This document shows positions 1-37,987 of a stretch of 64,000 nt of DNA, piece by piece. Under the pieces are notes generated by a model. The model was given only the letters and a program-made list of their open reading frames with translations, did no database searches and was not told the DNA's origin. A program made the translations under genes and the position numbers. The stretch spans positions 62,001 to 126,000 of the forward strand of contig DASUJH010000020.1 in the NCBI GenBank assembly GCA_036279355.1, in the 5' to 3' direction. Each line of letters starts with the position of its first letter. Within the stretch, counting starts at the first letter, position 1. The DNA is from Gemmatimonadales bacterium. GTDB lineage: Bacteria; Gemmatimonadota; Gemmatimonadetes; Gemmatimonadales; GWC2-71-9.

Positions 1-673
1 ACTTCGCAGCCTCCGCCTCCTGCGGGCCGCCGATTTCGCCGATCATCATCACGGCTTCGGTCTCGGGGTCTTGCTCGAAGAGCTTGAGCATGTCGACGAA
101 CGAGCTGCCGTTGATCGGATCGCCGCCGATCCCGACGCTGGTGGAGACTCCGATGCCGAGCGCCTTCATCTGCGAGGCGGCCTCGTACCCGAGGGTGCCC
201 GAGCGGGTCACGAGCCCGACCCCGCCGCGCTGATAGATGTGTCCCGGCATGATGCCGAGCATCGCCTTGCCGGGGCTGATGATGCCGGCGCAGTTGGGCC
301 CCACCAGCACGGGGCGCCGCTCGCGGGCATACCGGTAGAGGTACCGCTTCACCATCATCATGTCCTGCGCCGGAATGCCGTCGGTGATGGCACAGATGAG
401 CCGCACGCCGGCGTCGGCCGCCTCCATGATCGCGTCGGCACAGAACGCCGCGGGCACGAAGATGAGCGTCGCCTTGGCGCCCGTCCCCTGCACCGCATCC
501 TTCACGGTATTGAACACCGGCCGGTCGAGGTGCCGGGTGCCGCCTTTGCCGGGAGTGACACCGCCCACGAGGTTCGTGCCGTAGGCAAGCATTTCCTTCC
601 CATGGAAGGTGCCCTTGTCGCCCGTGAAGCCCTGAATGATGGCGGGCGTCTTTTCGTCGATGAGAATGCTCAT
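1..673 (-). CDS. mtkB: malate-CoA ligase (malate thiokinase) subunit beta, C-terminus beyond the window
   Basis: Small-subunit partner of an ADP-forming acyl-CoA synthetase that activates L-malate to malyl-CoA in the cytoplasm. The visible 224 residues begin [12 protein letters not shown] and carry the CoA-binding Rossmann start [14 protein letters not shown], then [31 protein letters not shown] and [14 protein letters not shown]. The family is the SucD/MtkB fold. From memory the sequence reads closer to methylotroph MtkB than to SucD, especially SILIDEKTP and [10 protein letters not shown]. The start ATG (673) overlaps the mtkA stop as ATGA, so the two subunits are translationally coupled. 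The C-terminal part, which should hold the phospho-histidine, lies off the window. Succinyl-CoA ligase alpha remains the alternative, but the mcl and sga neighbours argue for malate. Confidence 0.85.
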
Positions 674-1863
674 GGCTTTCCGTTCCCGGCCTTGGCGCCC
701 GAGGTCTTGAGGACGGCCACGGCGTTCTCGGCCGCCTCGGTGAGGGTATCTGCGGTGGTGAGCGTGAGGCCGCTCTGCTCCAGGATGCGGCGGCCTTCCT
801 CCACGTTGGTGCCCGCCAGCCGGACCACGATAGGCACCGGCGGCTTGAGCTCGCGCACGGCGTTCACCACGCCCTGGGCCACCCAATCGCACCGGTTGAT
901 GCCGGCGAAGATGTTCACCAGGATCGCCTTCACCTTGGGGTCGGCGAGCACCAGCCGGAACGCGTTGCACACCTTCTCCGGCGAGGCGCCGCCGCCCACG
1001 TCGAGGAAGTTGGCGGGCTGGCTGCCCGCGTGCTGGATGAGATCCATCGTCGCCATGGCGAGCCCCGCGCCGTTCACGATGCAGCCGATCTCCCCGTCGA
1101 GCGCGACGTAGTTGATCCCGTACTCGGCCGCCTGCGACTCGCGCGGGTCTTCCTCCGCGTAGTCACGGAGCTCGCTCACATTGGGCCGGCGGAAAAGCGC
1201 GTTGTCGTCGAAGGTCATCTTCGCGTCCAGCGCCAGGAGCTGCCCATCCTTGGTGAGCACGAGCGGATTCACCTCGACCATCGTCGCGTCGAGGTCGCGG
1301 AAGGCGCGATAACAGCCGAGCAGCGTGGTGACACCGCGGGTCACCTGCGCCGGGTCCAGCCCGAGCGCAAACGCGATCTCGCGCGCCTGGAACGCCGTCA
1401 TGCCGACCGCGGGCTCGACCACGGAGCGCACGATGGCGTTCGGCGTGGTTCCGGCAATCTCCTCGATCTCCATGCCCCCCTGCGGCGCTGCGACGATCAT
1501 CACCCGCTCGCTCTTCCGGTCCAGCACGAAGCCGATGTACAGCTCGCGCTCGATCGGCACCGCGGCCTCGACGTAGAGCCGGTGCACGACGCGGCCCTCC
1601 GGCCCCGTCTGGTGGGTGACGAGGCGCCGCCCGAGCAGCCCCTTGGCCGCCTGGCGCACCTCGTCCTCGCTGGTGCAGACCTTGATGCCGCCCGCCTTGC
1701 CGCGCGCGCCCGAGTGGATCTGCGCCTTCACCGCCCAGCGGGATCCGCCCACCTCGGAGGCGCGATACACCGCCTGCTCGGGGCTGTAGGCAACGCCGCC
1801 ACGCGGAATGGGGACGCCGAAGCTCGCCAGCAGTTCCTTGGCCTGATACTCGTGGATATCCAC
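670..1863 (-). CDS. mtkA: malate-CoA ligase (malate thiokinase) subunit alpha, ATP-grasp
   Basis: Nucleotide-binding subunit (397 aa) of malate thiokinase, a SucC homologue. It opens [15 protein letters not shown], followed by the ATP-grasp core with [17 protein letters not shown], a middle section with [33 protein letters not shown] and [14 protein letters not shown], and the C-terminal ligase domain with [28 protein letters not shown] and [14 protein letters not shown]. Start is GTG at 1863, supported by an AGGAGAGG ribosome site about 6 bases upstream. It follows mcl after 27 bases and overlaps mtkB by 4. The length is that of SucC/MtkA. Wording such as [20 protein letters not shown] and [11 protein letters not shown] is typical of MtkA in serine-cycle organisms. 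Substrate assignment to malate rather than succinate rests on this resemblance and on the operon. Confidence 0.87.
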
Positions 1864-1890
1864 CAGTTCCTCTCCTTGCGAAGCCGGCGC

Positions 1891-2847
1891 CTAGCGGCCG
1901 GCGGCTACCGGTTTGTCCGCGATCGCCTCGGCCATGCGCACCACGTTTTCCGCCATGCGGGCCGAGGCGGCATCGATCATCTTGCCGTCGAGCTGCGCGG
2001 CGCCCTTCCGTTCCCGCGCCGCCGCGTCGAGCGCGTCGAGAATCCGCCGCGCGCGATCCACTTCCGCCGCAGGCGGCGAGAAGACGTCGTTGGCGAGTCC
2101 GATCTGCGAGGGGTGGATAGCCCACTTGCCCTCGAAGCCGAGCGCGGCGCCGCGCCTGGCCGCCGCGAGGAATGCATCGGGATCCCTGAAGTCGCCGAAG
2201 GGACCATCGATCGGGCGGAGCCCATACGCGCGGCACGCGACCAGCATGCGGGAGAGCCCGTACTGCCACTGGTCGCCGGGATAATCCGGGTTGAGCCCCC
2301 CGATGTTCACGGTGCGGGCGCGGCAGCTCGCGGCGTAATCCGCAACGCCGAAGTGCATCGCCTCGAGCCGGCCGCGTCCGGCCGCGATCGCCTCGACATG
2401 AGCCATGCCGAGCGTCGTCTCGATCAGCACCTCGATGCCGATCCGGTGCGGGATGCCCCTGGCCGCCTCGATCTGGGTGAGCAGCGCGTCCACCAGATAT
2501 ACGTCCGCGGGCACGCCGACCTTGGGAATGAGCACGAGGTCGAGCCGGTGCCCCGCCTGCTCGATCACATCCACCACGTCGCGGTACATGTAGTGCGTGT
2601 CGAGCCCGTTGATGCGCACGCTCACCGTCTTGCCGTGGCCACGCCAATCGAGCTCGAGCAGGGCCGCGATGACGTTCCGGCGCGCCTGCTCCTTGTCGGC
2701 GGGAGCGACCGCGTCTTCCAGGTCCAGAAAGACGACGTCGGCCTCGCTGGCGAGCGCCTTCGGGAACATGCCTGGGTTGGACCCGGGGACCGCCAACGTA
2801 CTTCGCTGGAGGCGCGGGGTGGCCGGCTCGTAACGGGTATGGCTCAT
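1891..2847 (-). CDS. mcl: L-malyl-CoA lyase (HpcH/HpaI, CitE-like family)
   Basis: Cleaves malyl-CoA to acetyl-CoA and glyoxylate (318 aa, TIM barrel, Mg-dependent). Visible family signatures are TLAVPGSNPGMFPKAL at the N-terminus, the metal/acid loop DVVFLDLEDAV, VRINGLDT, LIPKVG, an IGIEVLIET strand with the glutamate ligand, AMHFGVADYAA, and the C-terminal EGKWAIHPSQI. The length matches methylotroph malyl-CoA lyase (about 320 aa) rather than citrate lyase beta (about 290). Start ATG 2847 overlaps the sga stop as ATGA. Being placed between sga and mtkA fixes its role at malyl-CoA. Beta-methylmalyl-CoA activity, seen in some relatives, cannot be excluded from sequence. Confidence 0.9.
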   Translation of the reverse strand: MSHTRYEPATPRLQRSTLAVPGSNPGMFPKALASEADVVFLDLEDAVAPADKEQARRNVIAALLELDWRGHGKTVSVRINGLDTHYMYRDVVDVIEQAGHRLDLVLIPKVGVPADVYLVDALLTQIEAARGIPHRIGIEVLIETTLGMAHVEAIAAGRGRLEAMHFGVADYAASCRARTVNIGGLNPDYPGDQWQYGLSRMLVACRAYGLRPIDGPFGDFRDPDAFLAAARRGAALGFEGKWAIHPSQIGLANDVFSPPAAEVDRARRILDALDAAARERKGAAQLDGKMIDAASARMAENVVRMAEAIADKPVAAGR

Positions 2848-4097
2848 CGAGCCACCGCCGTCGCGGGCCGCGAGGGGGCCGCGCCGGCCGACGCATCGGG
2901 CGAGCGCGGCGCCTGCTCCTTCTTGAGCGCCGGCGCGGTGCTGCGCCAGTACTCTTCCGCCGCCGCGACGCCGCTGCCCGGCGTCAGCTTGATGCCCACG
3001 TCGCGCATCGCCATTTCAGCACCGGCGAGGGCACCCAGGAGCATGAGCTCGTTGAGGTCGCCCAGATGCCCGATGCGGAAGAGCTTGCCGCCCATGCGCG
3101 CGAGGCCGGCGCCGAGCGCCAGGTCGTAGCGGCGGTACGCGACATCGATGACCTCGGCGCCGTTCACGCCTTGTGGCACCATCACGGCGCTCACCGTGTC
3201 GGAGTACCATCGGGGTTCCTTGGCGCAGAGCGAGAGGCCCCATGCCTTGACCGCGGCACGGGTCCCTTCGGCCAGCCGGTGATGGCGCGCAAAGACGCTT
3301 TCCAGCCCTTCCTCGAACAGAATGGCGAGCGACTCGCGCAGGCCGTAGAGGAGCGGCAGCGATGGCGTGTACGGGAAATAGCCGGTCGCGTTGGCCTTGA
3401 TCATGTCGGTGAAATCGAAGAAGACCCGATTGAGCTTGGCGGTCTCGGTGCGGGTCATCGCCTTCGGGCTGGCGCAGAGGATGCCGAGGCCGGCCGGCAG
3501 CATGAGGCCTTTCTGCGAACCGGTGATGGCGAGGTCGACGCCCCACTCGTCCATCCTGAAGTCGATGCTGCCGATCGAGCTCACGCCGTCGATGTAGAGC
3601 AACGCCGGGTGCTTGGCGCGGTCCATCGCCTTTCGGACCGCCGCGACGTCGCTCGTCACGCCGGTGGCGGTTTCGTTGTGGACCACCATCACGCCCTTGA
3701 ACTCGTGCGCCTTGTCGCGGGTGAGCGCCTCCTCGATCTTCTCGACCGGCGCGCCTTCGCCCCACTCGACGTCGATCACCTCGACGTTGAGGCCGAGCCG
3801 CTGGGCCATGTCGATCCAGAGATAGCTGAACTGCCCGTAGCGGGCCGCGAGCACCCGGTCGCCGGGCGACAGGGTGTTGCAGAGCGCGGCTTCCCAGGCG
3901 CCGGTCCCGCTCGCGGGGAAGATGAACGCGCGGGCGGAGTCCGTCTTGAAGACCTTCTTTACGTCGCGGAGCACCGGCGTCGCAAGCGCGGGAAAGTCCG
4001 GTGAGCGATGATCCTCCATCGCCCGGTGCATCGCGCGGAGAATGCGGTCGGGGGTATTGGTGGGACCCGGCACGAAGAGGAAGTTACGACCCGGCAT
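2844..4097 (-). CDS. sga: serine--glyoxylate aminotransferase (class V PLP enzyme)
   Basis: Transfers the amino group of serine to glyoxylate, giving hydroxypyruvate and glycine. The 417-aa protein begins MPGRNFLFVPGPTNTPDRIL, contains the class V signature around GSQKGLMLPAGLGIL with the PLP lysine, and has YIDGVSSIGSIDF upstream of it. The C-terminal RIGHLGDLNELMLLGAL is typical of SGA/AGT. I chose ATG 4097, preceded by GGTCGAGAG; a TTG 18 bases further up would add six residues. A low-complexity Ala/Pro-rich tail of about 30 residues follows the conserved domain. It is first in the sga-mcl-mtkA-mtkB run, and the divergent glycerate kinase would act on the glycerate made from its product. 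Alanine--glyoxylate aminotransferase is the alternative specificity. Confidence 0.87.
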   Translation of the reverse strand: MPGRNFLFVPGPTNTPDRILRAMHRAMEDHRSPDFPALATPVLRDVKKVFKTDSARAFIFPASGTGAWEAALCNTLSPGDRVLAARYGQFSYLWIDMAQRLGLNVEVIDVEWGEGAPVEKIEEALTRDKAHEFKGVMVVHNETATGVTSDVAAVRKAMDRAKHPALLYIDGVSSIGSIDFRMDEWGVDLAITGSQKGLMLPAGLGILCASPKAMTRTETAKLNRVFFDFTDMIKANATGYFPYTPSLPLLYGLRESLAILFEEGLESVFARHHRLAEGTRAAVKAWGLSLCAKEPRWYSDTVSAVMVPQGVNGAEVIDVAYRRYDLALGAGLARMGGKLFRIGHLGDLNELMLLGALAGAEMAMRDVGIKLTPGSGVAAAEEYWRSTAPALKKEQAPRSPDASAGAAPSRPATAVAR

Positions 4098-4176
4098 CTC
4101 TCGACCTCGACTCAAGGGGATGAAAAAGAATGACCGTGCGGGAGCGGTTGCTCTCGCCCGTCATGTGCCCGATTAA

Positions 4177-4205
4177 GCTTGCAACGCCATGTATATTGTG
4201 CAAGC
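4177..4205. promoter_or_regulatory. perfect 7-bp inverted repeat, candidate operator between sga and glycerate kinase
   Basis: GCTTGCA (4177-4183) and TGCAAGC (4199-4205) are exact reverse complements around a 15-base centre containing the AT-rich TATATT (4192-4197), a possible -10 element. It lies in the only space available for divergent promoters: 45 bases before the kinase GTG and 80 before the sga ATG. The size and spacing resemble a site for a dimeric regulator (LysR or GntR class), but no such gene is adjacent. Sequence observation is firm; function is inferred. Confidence 0.45.
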
Positions 4206-4249
4206 ACTGCCGTTTGCACCAGCCTCCACTCCACCACTCGGCAGGACTC

Positions 4250-5632
4250 GTGACGCCGATCGATCTCGACCGCGCTCGCCGCCGCGCCCTCCTCGAGGAT
4301 CTGTACGCCGCCGCCGTCGCTGCCGCGGCGCCCGGCCCGGCGGTGCGCCGCGCCGTCGATCGCCTGCTCGGCCAGCACCTGCCCGGCGAACGCCACGGCG
4401 CGCCTGAGCCCGGCAGGAGCATCTGGCTGCTCGCGCTCGGCAAGGCGGCGCTGCCGATGGCGGACGCGGCGGTCGCCGCGCTCCGAGCCCACGGGCTCGA
4501 ACCTGCCGGCGGCCTCGCTGTGCCGCCGGCACCGGGCGCTACTCCGCACGCGTCCATGGCGGTGACACCCGGCGACCACCCGGAGCCCGGCGCGAATTCG
4601 CTCGCCGCCGCCGATGCGCTGGCGCTCGTCGCCCGGCAGGTAGCGCCGGAAGACGAAGCATGGGTGCTGCTCTCCGGTGGCGCCACCAGCCTGCTCGGCG
4701 CTCCGGTGGAGGGCATCGCACCCGGCGAGCTCTCCGCCCTCTACGGCCTCCTGCTCGGGTCGGGCCTCGATATCGCCGCGATGAATCGCATCCGCAAGCG
4801 ATTCTCCCGCTGGGGCGGCGGCCGGCTCGCCGCGGCCCTCGCGCCGGCGCGGGTACGCGTGCTCGTGGTCTCCGATGTAATCGGCGATGATCTCGCGTCG
4901 ATTGCCTCGGGCCCCTGCGTCCCCGACCCGACGACGGCCGCCGAGGTCCGCGCCGCGCTCGAATCCGCGCGCCTCTGGCACCGGATGCCGGCCTCGCTTC
5001 GATTCGGCGTGGAGGCCACCGAGCGGGGGCAGGCGGGCGAGACCCCCAAGCCGGATCACCCCGCCTTCGCCGCGGTCGAGACGCAGCTCATCGTGAGCAA
5101 TCGCCTCGCGCTCGAGGCCGCATCGGCGCGCGCCGTCCAGCTGGGCCTGACACCGTCCATCATGCGGCCCGCGCTCGCAGGCGAGGCCGCGGACGCCGGG
5201 CGCGTGATTGCCGCCACACTCCAGGCGTACGGCCTAAGCTACCGCGCGGGTCCCCCGACGCAACCGAACGCGTTCAAACCGGCCTGTCTCATCTGGGGGG
5301 GTGAAACGACGGTGACGCTCGGCGCTGGTGCCGGACTCGGCGGCCGCTCCCAGGAACTGGCGCTCGCCGCGGCAGAGGTGCTCCACGACGGCGCGGGCGC
5401 GCAGGGACCGATGATCCTCGCGGCCGGCACCGATGGCCGGGACGGCCCCACCGACGCTGCGGGCGCGGTGGTAGACGGAGATACCTGGGAGGCGATCCGC
5501 GAGACCGGCCGAGACCCGGCGCGCGACCTCGCGCGCCACGACGCCTATCCCGCGCTCGATGCGGCGGGCGCGTTGCTTCGGCCCGGCCTCACCGGCACGA
5601 ACGTGATGGACGTGGTGTTCGGATTGGCGTAG
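4250..5632 (+). CDS. glycerate 2-kinase, GckA/MOFRL type
   Basis: Phosphorylates D-glycerate to 2-phosphoglycerate, feeding enolase. The 460-aa protein has an N-terminal DUF4147 domain (LALGKAALPMADAA, then LLSGGATSLL at about residue 140 and MNRIRKRFSRWGGG) and a C-terminal MOFRL domain (WGGETTVTLGAGAGLGGRSQELALAAA, AAGTDGRDGPTDAAGA). This is the class II kinase family used in the serine cycle. The reading frame is open back to an ATG at 4130, but that start would sit 33 bases from sga and swallow the intergenic dyad. GTG 4250 gives the usual family length. Transcribed away from sga. Family members also phosphorylate hydroxypyruvate-type substrates or tartronate-derived glycerate, so glyoxylate salvage is an alternative context. 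Confidence 0.87.
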   Translation: MTPIDLDRARRRALLEDLYAAAVAAAAPGPAVRRAVDRLLGQHLPGERHGAPEPGRSIWLLALGKAALPMADAAVAALRAHGLEPAGGLAVPPAPGATPHASMAVTPGDHPEPGANSLAAADALALVARQVAPEDEAWVLLSGGATSLLGAPVEGIAPGELSALYGLLLGSGLDIAAMNRIRKRFSRWGGGRLAAALAPARVRVLVVSDVIGDDLASIASGPCVPDPTTAAEVRAALESARLWHRMPASLRFGVEATERGQAGETPKPDHPAFAAVETQLIVSNRLALEAASARAVQLGLTPSIMRPALAGEAADAGRVIAATLQAYGLSYRAGPPTQPNAFKPACLIWGGETTVTLGAGAGLGGRSQELALAAAEVLHDGAGAQGPMILAAGTDGRDGPTDAAGAVVDGDTWEAIRETGRDPARDLARHDAYPALDAAGALLRPGLTGTNVMDVVFGLA

Positions 5633-37617: not shown

Positions 37618-37623
37618 TCCCGA

Positions 37624-37987
37624 TGGAGGCGGAGGGAATCGAACCCTCGTCCGAGTAAGGCTCCAGAACCGCGTCTACGTGCGTAGGCCCGACTTCTTCC
37701 CTTTTCTCCGGACCGGCGCCGAGCCGGCCTGCCCGGAGATCAACCTCTTGCCCAACTCGCTCGACGCGGCGAGGTCTCGCGGCGAGCCAGTCCGGCTTTG
37801 CGATTCGGCGGAGGCGCTCCGGACGAGCTCCATCCGCCGAAGGTGCGAGAAGCGAGCGTTAGCTCAGCTTACGCAGCCAGTGCCAGTTCTGAGTTGGCAG
37901 TTGAAACGTTCCAGACGGTTTCACCAGGGATCTGGACCTGGGCACGCTACGATTCCTTCATCGAACCCGTCGAAGCCAGTCGCCCCC
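37624..37987 (-). ncRNA. ssrA: transfer-messenger RNA (tmRNA), proteolysis tag ANSELALAA
   Basis: About 364 nt. The 5' end GGGGGCGACTGGCTTCGACG and the 3' end with GGGTTCGATTCCC T-arm and CGCCTCC-A pair as the tRNA-like acceptor (7 bp, one G-U). CCA is not encoded: the next bases are TCG. The internal reading frame at 37898-37869 gives A-N-S-E-L-A-L-A-A then TAA, so the added tag is AANSELALAA with the charged alanine. One-piece, not circularly permuted. Rescues stalled ribosomes with SmpB. Confidence 0.93.

Follow-up and report, generated by a model that had tools for sequence, protein, structure and literature searches.

Genes at the locus

The window analysed here is a stretch of 64,000 nucleotides of a Gemmatimonadales genome (contig DASUJH010000020.1 of assembly GCA_036279355.1, here C20; C20:62001-126000, so that window position 1 is C20:62001), and our subject is the set of putative serine-cycle genes found at its edge. 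The genome comprises 3,249,470 bases and is rated 97.52% complete. Positions and strands of the open reading frames place sga, mcl, mtkA and mtkB consecutively and divergent from a gene for a GckA-type kinase, as a preliminary description of the window had reported. That description had also listed hpr and ppc as lacking; both are in fact the next two genes after mtkB, in the neighbouring stretch, and only seemed to be missing because the window edge cuts the operon. The features are as follows (window coordinates unless marked C20).

2844-4115, minus strand: sga, serine-glyoxylate aminotransferase (open reading frame call and solved relative; likelier start ATG 4097)
1891-2847, minus strand: mcl, malyl-CoA lyase (4-base overlap with the sga stop)
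670-1863, minus strand: mtkA, malate-CoA ligase beta subunit (profile search, identity, tree)
1-673 and, beyond the window edge, C20:61762-62000, minus strand: mtkB, malate-CoA ligase alpha subunit (303 amino acids)
C20:60791-61765, outside the window, minus strand as the operon: hpr, hydroxypyruvate reductase
C20:58017-60794, outside the window, minus strand as the operon: ppc, phosphoenolpyruvate (PEP) carboxylase
4130-5632, plus strand, divergent from sga: gckA-type glycerate 2-kinase (likely start GTG 4250, not ATG 4130)
4098-4249, no strand: divergent sga-gckA intergenic region with the inverted repeats GCTTGCA-N15-TGCAAGC and GTGCAA-N10-TTGCAC

Four-base overlaps between sga and mcl, mtkA and mtkB, mtkB and hpr, and hpr and ppc suggest that sga-mcl-mtkA-mtkB-hpr-ppc forms a single transcription unit. 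Judging from the sequence just upstream, 4097 and 4250 are the likely starts of sga and gckA, and the inverted repeats between them are a possible operator for a regulator. Nine relatives examined show no plain conservation of the TTGCA/TGCAA half-sites that precede sga, and a promoter and terminator scan of window positions 3900-4500 detected neither.

One-carbon genes in the genome and across the phylum

The glyA, methanol and formate genes, likewise described at first as lacking, are located elsewhere in the genome. Serine hydroxymethyltransferase (SHMT, GlyA; C60:159432), formate-tetrahydrofolate (THF) ligase (C51:126706) and FolD (C20:161385) score over their family cut-offs, as does an Fch-like protein with the FTCD_C model (C45:37450), and formate dehydrogenase alpha (C2:102735) is also over its cut-off. 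SHMT and FolD say little alone, since they were matched in 14/14 and 12/14 control genomes, respectively. The pyrroloquinoline quinone (PQQ) alcohol dehydrogenase model TIGR03075 has nine matches in the genome, four of them over the cut-off. Two of the latter are xoxF genes at C28:161-167 kb with an XoxJ-type gene (TIGR03871) between them, and both translations carry a D-Y-D motif, an instance of the D-x-D motif that we take as the mark of a lanthanide-type methanol dehydrogenase. Past this pair follow genes of the tetrahydromethanopterin (H4MPT)/methanofuran biosynthesis type (4HFCP synthase, Pterin_4a, DUF447, GHMP kinase, PTPS and a pterin-binding protein) and then mch, fhcCDAB, mtdB and fae. 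FhcC is over its NCBIfam cut-off, and FhcA was assigned from its general Amidohydro_3 domain and its position. A second PQQ alcohol dehydrogenase pair, one member with D-Y-D, is found at C16:1-18000, next to genes that by eye encode a substrate-binding-like protein, cytochrome-oxidase-like subunits and a cytochrome c-like protein.

A screen of the phylum with Mcl matched 46 of 298 genomes at E <= 1e-40. We retained as Mcl-positive the 29 genomes with at least 67% identity (G110 and G214 split), dropping 17 weaker ones (38-51%), and compared them with 20 of the 252 Mcl-negative genomes; all 20 of the latter belong to the window's family, and 7 of the 29 positives lie outside it. Fae was matched in 24/29 Mcl-positive and 0/20 Mcl-negative genomes, a PQQ alcohol dehydrogenase over cut-off in 27/29 and 9/20, and an isocitrate lyase (ICL)-family gene over the Pfam cut-off in 27/29 and 10/20, the Fisher tests on these co-occurrences making no correction for the kinship of the genomes.

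A putative assimilatory serine cycle

Based on these genes, we propose with a probability of roughly 0.9 that the operon encodes the assimilatory serine cycle with which a bacterium of the Gemmatimonadota, a phylum in which we know of no cultured methylotroph, would use methanol facultatively and probably in a lanthanide-dependent way. This supports the earlier suggestion of a serine-cycle module in a non-proteobacterial genome; each serine-cycle enzyme sought was found in the genome, Fch weakly. Substrates and fluxes, deduced from the observed gene families, their order, their co-occurrence and their presence in the genome, would be the following: (i) methanol would be oxidised by XoxF, and formate made via the H4MPT pathway Fae-MtdB-Mch-Fhc; (ii) formate-THF ligase together with FolD or the Fch-like protein would convert formate to methylene-THF, from which, with glycine, GlyA would form serine; (iii) Sga would convert serine and glyoxylate to hydroxypyruvate and glycine, Hpr would reduce hydroxypyruvate to glycerate, and GckA would yield 2-phosphoglycerate; (iv) an assumed enolase would give PEP, Ppc oxaloacetate and an assumed malate dehydrogenase malate; (v) MtkAB would activate malate to malyl-CoA, which Mcl would cleave to glyoxylate and acetyl-CoA. 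Net assimilation would require glyoxylate to be remade from acetyl-CoA, most likely here by an isocitrate-lyase-type step.

Several observations weigh against this proposal. FhcB (232.6 vs 327.8) and Ppc (779.7 vs 815) fall under their NCBIfam cut-offs, and so does the Fch-like protein with the FchA equivalog (128 vs 275), for which reason FolD may perform the Fch step. The Fae search gave no match in five Mcl-positive genomes (G032, G075, G110, G202 and G293), in which the module may operate independently of formaldehyde oxidation via H4MPT, or fae may be missing from the assemblies. Expression and growth on methanol are predicted from the genes. Closure of the cycle is uncertain: the genome search for crotonyl-CoA carboxylase/reductase found no match over the cut-off (best 102.8 vs 378.55 bits), and the only candidate isocitrate lyase scores best on ICL models yet far under the NCBIfam cut-offs (TIGR01346, 169.7 vs 275.9).

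The strongest competitor to a methanol-fed cycle, though an improbable one, is that the operon serves mainly glyoxylate/glycine or formate assimilation in a heterotroph that oxidises one-carbon compounds just for energy. Related Mcl genes are spread over many taxa, some of which are not known as methylotrophs, and both the five Mcl-positive genomes without a Fae match and the ICL-family gene in 27 of the 29 would fit such a lifestyle. However, ppc and gckA, which the full cycle requires, are located with the operon, xoxF and the H4MPT pathway are encoded in the same genome, and Fae strongly tracks Mcl in the sample.

The assimilatory serine cycle also depends on the identity of its malate-activating and malyl-CoA-cleaving enzymes. 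MtkA scores 695 bits with the malate-CoA ligase beta model NF010647 (cut-off 604), its top score, but it is also over the cut-offs of SucC models (551 and 509 bits), and its best solved relatives are succinyl-CoA synthetases; MtkB is over the cut-offs of two SucD models and has no match to a malate-CoA alpha model, so that the models for MtkB alone leave malate and succinate unseparated. It is nevertheless very improbable that MtkAB is another succinyl-CoA synthetase and that Mcl is an unspecialised lyase of the CitE kind. The genome encodes a separate SucC (C7:95895-97022), 45% identical to MtkA, and among 21 Gemmatimonadota genomes searched with MtkA, all eight Mcl-negative ones have a single match (43-48% identity), whereas two matches occur in 12 of the 13 Mcl-positive ones, and in the remaining one, G107, only the SucC-like match. 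The comparison of MtkA with SucC that the preliminary description had proposed placed MtkA outside the SucC group: the 18 SucC rows from Gemmatimonadota cluster together (support 100), separate from the MtkA rows, and MtkA groups with MtkA of Methylobacterium, Hyphomicrobium and Aminobacter, E. coli SucC also falling outside. On the NF010647 score, the separate SucC and the tree, we rejected the assignment of MtkAB as SucCD. As for Mcl, the best solved relative is a malyl-CoA/beta-methylmalyl-CoA lyase (5ugr, E 3.5e-125); none of its four NCBIfam matches is over the cut-off, the CitE model reaching 157.6 vs 443.4.

The best solved relative of Sga is a serine-glyoxylate aminotransferase (6pk1, E 1.2e-153), and an identity as BhcA, which would make the module part of the beta-hydroxyaspartate cycle, is just as remote: BhcA (NF045640) is indeed its best NCBIfam match at 613.9 bits, the highest of three, but the cut-off of 650 is missed, as it is by the control aminotransferases of Methylobacterium bullatum (544) and Aminobacter aminovorans (600), for which BhcA is likewise the best match, and no further gene of that cycle was recognised among the operon genes, so we rejected it. 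Hpr resembles enzymes of the glyoxylate reductase/D-glycerate dehydrogenase type, and GckA has DUF4147 and MOFRL domains, with a putative glycerate kinase (2b8n) as one of two solved relatives; both score under the cut-offs of their NCBIfam matches. Ppc is a full PEPcase that meets the Pfam cut-off at 803 bits.

A candidate enzyme for glyoxylate regeneration

The ethylmalonyl-CoA pathway was rejected as the closure route on the one marker named above, crotonyl-CoA carboxylase/reductase. The sole ICL match in the genome is a protein of 381 amino acids (C20:217535-218680; L169:9535-10680) over the Pfam ICL cut-off, whose gene lies amid apparent sugar-nucleotide genes. It retains SGW, a Cys-Gly-His core and N-x-S-P-S, residues with presumed roles in this protein, but has NRTCGH in place of the KKCGH present in 11 other ICL-type proteins of Gemmatimonadota. 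By score, this variant occurs in 11/29 Mcl-positive and 0/20 Mcl-negative genomes and a canonical-type ICL in 16/29 and 10/20; two of the 29 have neither, and no sampled genome has both over the Pfam cut-off. RTCGH, preceded by N or D, was read directly in 10 of the 11 variants, G048 being typed by score only. Ten variant proteins were aligned, nine of which are 74-84% identical to the C20 protein. A plasmid search with the latter returned 266 records, all below 60% identity (27.9-30.6% in the 25 matches listed), and its AlphaFold model is too poor to use (mean pLDDT 48). We tentatively suggest, as a possibility less likely than not, that the RTCGH proteins of about 380 amino acids are a new ICL-like subfamily that replaces the canonical ICL and closes the cycle in a subset of serine-cycle Gemmatimonadota.

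Gene order and phylogeny

Gene order was compared for the best 80 of 590 Mcl relatives, seven from named Gemmatimonadota and 73 others. The order sga-mcl-mtkA-mtkB-hpr is kept in all seven named Gemmatimonadota loci, which argues that the arrangement is not due to chance; ppc comes next in those four that extend far enough, and gckA is divergent in four. The other 73 include at least five loci with the six-gene order and at least nine more with the first five genes, counts that are minima as many loci end at contig ends. The five are metagenome-assembled genomes (MAGs) labelled Gammaproteobacteria (L041, L055, L063 and L083) and Porisulfidus (L069); their order sga-mcl-mtkA-mtkB-hpr-ppc is identical to that reported here, but, unlike in the window, sga is not accompanied by a divergent gckA match in these loci. 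On plasmid pAA01, Aminobacter aminovorans (L211) shares the order sga-mcl-mtkA-mtkB-hpr at identities of 59% (SGA), 73% (Mcl), 67% (MtkA), 67% (MtkB) and 61% (Hpr); it differs in that gck (a DUF4147 protein) comes after hpr in the same orientation and that the 17-kb stretch shows no ppc match. In Methylobacterium bullatum (L210), the identities are 64% (SGA), 68% (MtkA), 73% (MtkB), 61% (PPC) and 64% (Mcl), but the order is sga-hpr ... mtkA-mtkB-ppc-mcl and the Hpr match is just 31% identical. In nine Pelagibacteraceae-labelled (SAR11) loci (L065, L067, L071, L077, L088, L093, L098, L102 and L105), mcl-mtkA-mtkB occurs with no sga match within the available stretch.

The best three Mcl matches in named genomes come from Gemmatimonadales/Gemmatimonadetes (80, 81 and 79% identity); matches of lower rank from outside the phylum are up to 79% identical, and for two of the seven Gemmatimonadota loci the identity is only 73 and 76%. 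The MtkA and Mcl trees are quick ones without bootstrap, and nearly all of their rows from outside the Gemmatimonadota come from the best 80 of 590. Some rows are identical (G145 = L042 and G113 = L040 in both trees, G090 = L038 and G227 = L039 in the Mcl tree), the first of each pair being a genome of the window's family and the second a named Gemmatimonadota locus. Taken together, the labels of these matches and rows place the genome in the Gemmatimonadota, very probably in the order Gemmatimonadales. With SucC as the root, the Gemmatimonadota MtkA rows form one group (support 65), nested in Pseudomonadota diversity and joined by a long-branched M. bullatum row (98). In the Mcl tree, the split between Gemmatimonadota and all others is supported at 98; with a distant Gemmatimonadota paralogue on a long branch as the root, all others form one branch among Gemmatimonadota rows. 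The two rooted trees thus disagree on the direction of transfer. The preliminary description had considered the pathway transferred or independently kept: the Gemmatimonadota rows do hold together. The six-gene order in common with Gammaproteobacteria-labelled MAGs and the five-gene order in common with an alphaproteobacterial plasmid fit exchange between phyla, and it is likely that the shared block moved between phyla at least once.

Elsewhere in the window, the sole Rfam match over the gathering score is a tmRNA gene (37621-37987, minus strand, tag ANSELALAA).

Relation to earlier work and significance

Serine-pathway methylotrophy in soil Gemmatimonadetes was described in 2016 (PMC5103831); the present operon is a well-resolved further case of a kind already known. 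As presented there, Gemmatimonadetes genomes encode an XoxF-type methanol dehydrogenase, adjoining H4MPT biosynthesis genes, H4MPT-dependent formaldehyde oxidation and a malate-type serine pathway, all features shared with the genome studied here, and a methanol dehydrogenase of this group ranked first in abundance in the soil proteome studied. The operon order, the separation of MtkAB from SucCD, the glyoxylate-regeneration enzyme and the ICL-like variant are absent from the passages of PMC5103831 on Gemmatimonadetes considered here. XoxF has since been reported as abundant in Gemmatimonadetes, in an account that does not contain the word 'serine' (PMC6784897, 2019), and XoxF3 systems have been described in the group, the account assigning the serine pathway to the majority of XoxF genomes with several phyla pooled (PMC10875860, 2024). 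The passages of PMC8782848 and PMC11264602 considered here leave the operon undescribed, and among the titles and abstract openings listed from the openly licensed PMC literature, none describes the operon order or the ICL variant.

In summary, what appeared as a fragment at the window edge becomes a complete and testable system for one-carbon (e.g. methanol) assimilation in a soil phylum. Of remaining interest are a gene order that crosses phylum boundaries and an ICL-like enzyme of divergent sequence. The concrete gap to which the analysis points is the glyoxylate-regeneration enzyme; if our suggestion holds true, the RTCGH enzyme would be a glyoxylate-forming lyase dedicated to the serine cycle.

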